Positions 26,435 to 43,597 of a DNA stretch of 64,000 bases are shown here, one piece after another. Position numbers and translations under genes: made by a program. Source of the DNA: Brevundimonas sp. (GTDB taxonomy: Bacteria > Pseudomonadota > Alphaproteobacteria > Caulobacterales > Caulobacteraceae). The stretch lies in the NCBI RefSeq assembly GCF_030682035.1, contig NZ_JAUXQZ010000002.1, positions 109,327 through 173,326 on the forward strand, written 5' to 3'. Each line of letters begins with the position of its first letter. Position 1 is the first letter of the stretch. The notes under the pieces are model-generated. The model saw nothing but the letters and a program-made list of their open reading frames with translations, was not told the DNA's origin and ran no database searches.

Positions 26435-27712
26435 ATGCGAACCGCCGATTTCGACTTCGACCTGCCGGACGACCACATCGCGCTGCGCCCCGCCGAGCCG
26501 AGGGATTCCGCGCGCCTCATGGTGGTGCGGGACGGCGAACTTGAGGACCGGATCATCCGTGACCTGCCGGACTTCCTGCGGCCCGGCGACGCCCTGGTGT
26601 TCAACGACACGCGGGTGATCCCCGCGCGACTGTCGGGTGTGCGTGAGCGGGTCGGGCCGGATGACGAGAGCCTGACCGTGGCGGTCGAGGCCACCCTGCA
26701 TCACCGCGACGCGCCCGACGTCTGGTCGGCCTTCATGAAGCCGGGCAAGCGGATCAAGGCCGGGGATCGTATTCGCTTCACTGCTCCCCTTCCCCTCGAG
26801 GGGGTGGAGGAAGGTTCGCCGGAGGCGAACCGACGACGGGCCGGGGGATGGGGTGGAGGCCGTGAGTCGCAGAAACTGGCGCGGAGGGCGCCGTCCGGCG
26901 ACGGGCTGAGCCCATCGCCTCACCATCCACAGCCTGCCTTCACCCCCACCCCAACCCCTCCCCCCTCGAGGGGGAGGGGCTCTATGTGCTCGCTTGGCCA
27001 GCTCGACGCCACCGTGGTCGACAAGGGTGTGGATGGGCTGGTGACGCTGCGCTTCGATCTCGCCGGGCCGATGCTGGACGAGGCGATCCGCGACGTCGGG
27101 GTCATGCCCCTGCCCCCCTATATCGCCGCCAAACGGGCCGAAGACGACCGCGACCGCTCGGACTACCAGACCATGTTCGCCCATTGGGACGGATCGGTCG
27201 CCGCCCCGACGGCGGGACTGCATTTCACCCCGGCCCTGATGGGGGCGATCCGGGCCAGGGGCGTCTCGACCCATGCCGTGACCCTGCACGTCGGGGCCGG
27301 CACCTTCCTGCCGGTCAAGGCCGACGACACAGCCGATCACAAGATGCACTGCGAGTGGGGCGAGGTCTCCACCGATACCGCCGCCGCCCTGAACGCCGCA
27401 CGCGCCGCCGGGGGACGGATCGTCTGCGTCGGCACCACTTCGCTGCGGCTGCTGGAGAGCGCCACGATGCCCGAGGGCGAGATTCGCCCCTTCCACGGCG
27501 ACACAGCCATCTTCATCACCCCCGGCTACCGCTTCCGCGCCGCTGATGTGCTGATGACCAATTTCCACCTGCCGAAATCGACCCTGTTCATGCTGGTCAG
27601 CGCGTTCGCCGGGCTGGAGGTCATGAAGGCGGCCTATGCCCATGCGGTGGCAGAGGGGTATCGGTTCTATTCCTATGGGGATGGGTCATTGCTGTTCCGG
27701 AGCCTGACATGA
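26435..27712 (+). CDS. queA: S-adenosylmethionine:tRNA ribosyltransferase-isomerase, with a 66-codon repeat-derived insertion
   Basis: '[25 protein letters not shown]', '[18 protein letters not shown]', '[20 protein letters not shown]', '[16 protein letters not shown]', '[18 protein letters not shown]'; followed by tgt. Confidence 0.95.
26783..26980. repeat. GC-rich palindromic repeat element carried in frame within queA
   Basis: Ends GCTCCCCTTCCCCTCGAGGGGG and CCCCTCGAGGGGGAGGGGC form imperfect inverted repeats; internal hairpin GGTTCGCC-GGA-GGCGAACC (26813-26831); 198 nt = 66 codons with no stop. Confidence 0.75.
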
Positions 27713-27727
27713 GCCCGCCGACGTCTT

Positions 27728-27886
27728 CCTTCCCCCCTTGCGGGGGAAGGTGGCGCGCGGAGCGTGACGGATGGGGGGTGACACACCGGTCCGGCCCCGT
27801 TTTCGCGACTTCATTTTCTCATAGGCTAAGCCAGCCCCCCTATCCGACCGGCTGCGCCGGCCACCTTCCCCCGCGAGGGGGGAAGG
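27728..27886. repeat. Intergenic palindromic repeat between queA and tgt
   Basis: CCTTCCCCCCTTGCGGGGGAAGG ... CCTTCCCCCGCGAGGGGGGAAGG, with inner matching blocks (GGTGGCGCG.../...GCGCCGGCCACC; ATGGGGGG/CCCCCCTAT). Confidence 0.75.
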
Positions 27887-43440: not shown

Positions 43441-43597
43441 CCCTCTCCCAGAGGGAGAGGGAGGGGCCCGCCGCTAAGCGGTGGGAGGGTGAGGGGTTTC
43501 GCTCTCAGCCGGGACGCACCGTAACCCCTCACCCGCCCGCGCAAGGACGGATGCTGACGCATCCGTGCGCAGCCTCCCTCTCCCTTCGGGAGAGGGA
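43441..43597. repeat. Intergenic palindromic repeat between astD and astB
   Basis: CCCTCTCCCAGAGGGAGAGGGAGGG...TCCCTCTCCCTTCGGGAGAGGG inverted arms with inner GGGTGAGGGGTTtcg/aACCCCTCACCC pairing. Confidence 0.75.

Follow-up and report, generated by a model that had tools for sequence, protein, structure and literature searches.

How did a palindromic repeat come to lie in frame within queA of a Brevundimonas genome, and what could have moved it there? The locus belongs to a stretch of 64,000 nt (hereafter, the window), in which queA, encoding S-adenosylmethionine:tRNA ribosyltransferase-isomerase, occupies positions 26435–27712 on the forward strand and comprises 425 codons including the insert. 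Relatives with known names placed the window in Brevundimonas. A first-pass annotation of the sequence had described an in-frame palindromic repeat element within this gene. Our analysis confirmed this description: the 425-aa reading frame was stop-free throughout, and its match to PF02547 fell into two stretches with the insert between them. The product matched the structures 1yy3, 1vky and 1wdi.

The palindromic insert of queA

The earlier proposal of an in-frame repeat of 198 nt (66 codons) at 26783–26980 held with respect to its nature, and its start and net length were revised. Alignment with orthologues confirmed a foreign segment of ca. 200 nt that begins directly 3' of the conserved Phe codon TTC (26777–26779) of the GDRIRF motif (GDR(I/V)xF in general) and ends at ca. 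26980. The element, assigned to family A, was accordingly placed at 26780–26980 on the forward strand. Compared with most orthologues of the genus, queA gained 186 nt (62 codons) rather than 198 nt, as the element took the place of a few loop codons. The near-inverted ends were recovered as a left and a right outer palindrome, i.e., the arms of a terminal inverted repeat, at 26786–26804 (CCCCTTCCCCTCGAGGGGG) and 26961–26979 (CCCCCTCGAGGGGGAGGGG), which pair with 95% complementarity across 19 nt. The internal perfect hairpin (GGTTCGCC-GGA-GGCGAACC) lies at 26813–26831.

The DNA of the insert was not single copy, in agreement with its description as a repeat. The window genome (G000) contained 20 further partial matches (E ≤ 3e-4), one of which covered ca. 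135 nt at 75% identity, and dispersed copies of the elements occurred across Brevundimonas genomes. The queA element has the terminal inverted repeats that characterise MITEs, and, as for the Rickettsia palindromic elements (RPEs), the repeat occurs both in intergenic DNA and in frame within genes. An Rfam search of the window at gathering thresholds returned only tRNAs and no family for the element. Homology to a protein segment of other genera, one of the findings that the first-pass annotation had set against its own reading, was rejected as an explanation, with no match to the insert among 158 genomes sampled from the family's other genera. We infer that the ca. 200 nt in queA represent a small mobile element in non-autonomous form.

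Element families and DUF559 genes

Three observations went beyond the first-pass annotation: an association of the palindromes with DUF559 genes, the recurrence of different elements at the same queA codon and a parallel case in glyS. The elements consist of paired terminal repeats spanning ca. 130–200 nt; their ends are inverted repeats of ca. 45 nt with one hairpin each, and the centre is variable. No GTAG or CGTC tag was present at the hairpin foot, where the ends, read by eye, were of the CCTTCCCC, CCTTCTCCC and CCCTCTCCC types. Target-site duplication, another mark of MITEs, was absent from all 63 elements inspected, all of family B, and a preference for a 5' TY flank was likewise measured for this family only. 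The window itself contained further families. Intergenic between queA and tgt, a family F element at 27728–27886 carries the ends CCTTCCCCC...GGGGGAAGG on both sides; it occupies most of the spacer, and on visual comparison its ends are very similar to the terminal repeats found in F-type DUF559 units. Paired family E palindromes (CCCTCTCCC...GGGAGAGGG) lie at 43441–43596 and are of the type that brackets a DUF559 gene elsewhere in the window genome (G000:C20:34003-34320).

The first clue to the association was a single A element located in frame ahead of a DUF559 domain. This domain (PF04480) was found in 123 of the 131 genomes of the genus. Flanking inverted repeats above the level of shuffles were detected at 24 of 29 DUF559 loci, the best-scoring in the genus and picked by DUF559 score rather than by flank, compared with 0 of 49 control ORFs from the window. 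A family palindrome lay within 260 nt of all 61 DUF559 domains inspected, part of which came via element searches, but of only ca. 3% of random segments. Palindromes of the same type stood on both sides of 34 of these 61 genes, against none of ca. 24,350 random segments. Palindrome type (A, B, E, F or G) also tracked the DUF559 tree, requiring six changes compared with a mean of 35.5 after shuffling, with none of 200 shuffles as low. Because the A-type DUF559 loci were largely gathered via A-element matches, the presence of A-type palindromes beside them is partly due to selection; the clustering of these loci in the tree is not a product of that selection.

Within the window genome, all five DUF559 genes were associated with palindromes, four of them with terminal repeats; the A-type gene has a complete A element ahead of it, without clear terminal repeats on both sides. 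A class-wide sample comprised 20 DUF559 loci with terminal repeats and 10 without any above shuffles. In the related units, the DUF559 gene lies between hairpin-bearing inverted repeats that match each other; the queA copy is without the gene. At another locus of the window genome (G000:C1:42000-45500), similar units composed of an A element and DUF559 sequence are arranged in tandem behind near-copies of the next gene's start (ATGGAACAC.T.GA.CC). It looks as though insertion had duplicated this gene start; the first of the units is broken.

The DUF559 protein has invariant E, D, ExDG and H positions, and its model matched 3hrl and the catalytic domain of the homing endonuclease I-Bth0305I, i.e., a Vsr/homing-endonuclease fold. 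Y1_Tnp, the REP transposase family, was absent from the window genome, which rules out RAYT-driven REPs there; it was absent from 127 of the 131 genus genomes and present in four.

These sequence associations suggest that hairpin-ended elements could be mobilised by cognate DUF559 nucleases, whose genes would reside between matching terminal inverted repeats. The queA insert would then be a gene-less copy moved by such a system into a beta-hairpin turn that tolerates insertion, with the frame preserved. Judging from family B, insertion would proceed without target duplication and preferentially behind a 5' TY flank. The strongest competing explanation is that DUF559 is cargo or a neighbour, such as a repair or defence nuclease, that another enzyme moves the palindromes, and that those near DUF559 genes act as terminators or mRNA stabilisers. 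A role in mismatch repair has indeed been proposed for VsrA, a DUF559 protein of Caulobacter (PMC12907096), and several genomes without a DUF559 match still contain B-type elements; in these, the enzyme might work in trans, might have disappeared or might not be required. However, cargo would predict neither matching terminal inverted repeats on both sides, an arrangement that random segments never reproduced, nor palindrome types that follow the DUF559 phylogeny, and we regard this explanation as unlikely. Mobilisation of elements of this architecture by DUF559 nucleases is the most likely reading of the sequence data.

Recurrence and probable read-through at queA and glyS

A queA match was obtained in 127 of the 131 genus genomes. 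At least eight of these 127 carried a palindromic element at the same QueA loop, belonging to two families, A (that of the window) and B. Eight is a minimum, as ca. 60 loops were read directly and the remaining ones were judged from the alignment break at the insert; the elements in the eight occupied genes were complete or cut by a contig end, and lay at the same codon. Family A, with a CTTCCCCTCGAGGGGG core, was found in queA of the window genome, G138, G102 and G087 (where the contig end cuts the element), and family B (CCTTCTCCC...GGGAGAAGG, inner CCCTCATCCG) in that of G015, G017, G034 and G088. Empty sites were present in queA orthologues of the same genus, and loop length varies naturally among element-free relatives. 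In G130, the queA loop reads SSLIPHEGKG (L105), possibly what is left of an element that decayed or was excised.

At least six changes were needed to explain the distribution of occupied genes on the queA core tree. AU tests rejected a single clade for all occupied genes (p-AU 0.00015), for family A (0.008) and for family B (0.014), and a single ancestral insertion was thereby ruled out. A more elaborate version would invoke one ancestral insert, with loss from most lineages and replacement in others through recombination between elements, and no repeated insertion. Sister queA sequences bearing different families (L024, B; L052, A) and the possible remnant in G130 would be compatible with such a history, but empty genes are interspersed among the occupied ones, the AU tests reject a single clade for all occupied genes and for each family separately, and families A and B share, by eye, only short G+C-rich similarity. 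We consider this history improbable and favour repeated insertion. The repeated use of one codon could then reflect a weak site preference together with tolerance of extra residues: the conserved TTC at the queA target would fit the TY preference, a preference measured on family B and not on A, and the site appears to tolerate added residues.

A parallel case was found in glyS, encoding the beta subunit of GlyRS, where inserts at one loop (MGGYYAR^DAIADAVRDHY) were present in at least 15 genomes, including the window genome (at C17), and represented about four families (A, B and two further kinds). Recurrence at the same queA and glyS codons within one genus therefore makes tolerance and target choice separable by experiment. 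Downstream of glyS, some relatives contained a complete TIR-DUF559-TIR unit and others contained different elements. In the spacer 3' of the gene (L236–L247), almost every relative read had differing palindromic elements, with or without DUF559, making this an intergenic hot spot that adjoins a gene which is itself a target.

E2 acyltransferase linkers and biotin carboxylase also carried elements, with third-position G+C of the coding type on both sides. Among 90 sampled element loci, a sample biased because the search profiles were derived from queA frames, only these few genes, including E2 acyltransferase and biotin carboxylase, passed the coding test. Many ORFs across elements were non-coding frames or upstream extensions and were left out of the counts. 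In biotin carboxylase of the window genome, one palindrome (LPEPSPSRGRG) was observed (L021, G000:C43), and the full element was present there in G131 (L121, G131:C35).

The enlarged queA reading frame did not resemble a decayed pseudogene, which was ruled out by a core dN/dS of 0.08–0.21 in pairs with element-bearing copies, similar to pairs of empty copies. The flanking QueA motifs are intact, as originally described, in a core that is whole and under purifying selection. The proposal that the insert is tolerated as a loop agreed with an AlphaFold model, in which pLDDT was ca. 33–38 across most of the insert and the insert lay between strands 112–116 and 189–197. In this model, the insert has the look of a disordered loop that the protein tolerates. 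Read-through of the element would add ca. 62 probably disordered residues, and from the sequence, the enlarged protein would be made and active. These findings support the reading of the queA insert as an in-frame repeat element within a loop that accommodates it. Retention of the insert for a benefit to the protein, as an added functional segment, is highly improbable: each of the seven complete queA inserts, like the glyS inserts that were read, preserves the frame, but insert sequences vary among genomes and are modelled as disordered, and shared inserts are without clear constraint (dN 0.057 and dS 0.05 for glyS L188/L189; the L164/L167 pair has too few changes for a verdict).

Taken as a whole, the explanation that we favour, and consider reasonably probable, is that queA carries a non-autonomous copy of an element type mobilised by DUF559 nucleases, which is read through in a permissive turn. 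The wider proposal, to which we give even weight for and against, is that prokaryotes have a class of mobile element whose cognate hairpin-ended inverted repeats are moved, across Alphaproteobacteria, by a DUF559 nuclease resembling Vsr and homing endonucleases, and not by a RAYT or DDE transposase, repeatedly seeding essential proteins with in-frame inserts at the same permissive codons.

Comparison with known systems

To our knowledge, in-frame palindromic inserts are best described in Rickettsia, and we know of no mode by which they move. Their occurrence as such is already known from RPEs and some REPs. RPEs are palindromic elements of ca. 150 nt, some of which lie in frame in housekeeping genes and are translated (PMC10969869, a review). 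The likeness suggested by the first-pass annotation was apt in that RPEs, judged from this description, appear to be the closest functional analogue, namely translated palindromic elements carried in frame. Unlike RPEs, the Brevundimonas case involves two distinct families at one queA codon and an associated nuclease gene. Recurrence also has a precedent, since in-gene REPs were reported at about the same site in recB of two Xanthomonas species (PMC3733652).

The repeats described as CIR in the related genus Caulobacter are likewise inverted repeats, but are reported as strictly intergenic. Like MITEs, the Brevundimonas elements are short, dispersed and non-autonomous with terminal inverted repeats; they differ in that the 63 B elements lack a target-site duplication and in that the proposed autonomous partner would supply a nuclease in place of a known transposase. 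EDxHD homing endonucleases (I-Bth0305I) and Vsr share the fold of the DUF559 protein, whose gene, in contrast, lies between hairpin-bearing inverted repeats and not in an intron or intein. No study linking DUF559 to palindromic repeats was found among openly licensed papers, and the link could suggest a role for this widespread domain of unknown function. REP/BIME repeats with a RAYT (REPtrons) likewise couple hairpin repeats to a cognate enzyme gene. The Brevundimonas system differs in its enzyme family, which is DUF559 and not Y1_Tnp, in ends that read without GTAG/CGTC and in its paired terminal repeats, and could offer a candidate, amenable to testing, for the enzyme behind palindromic repeats in RAYT-less genomes.
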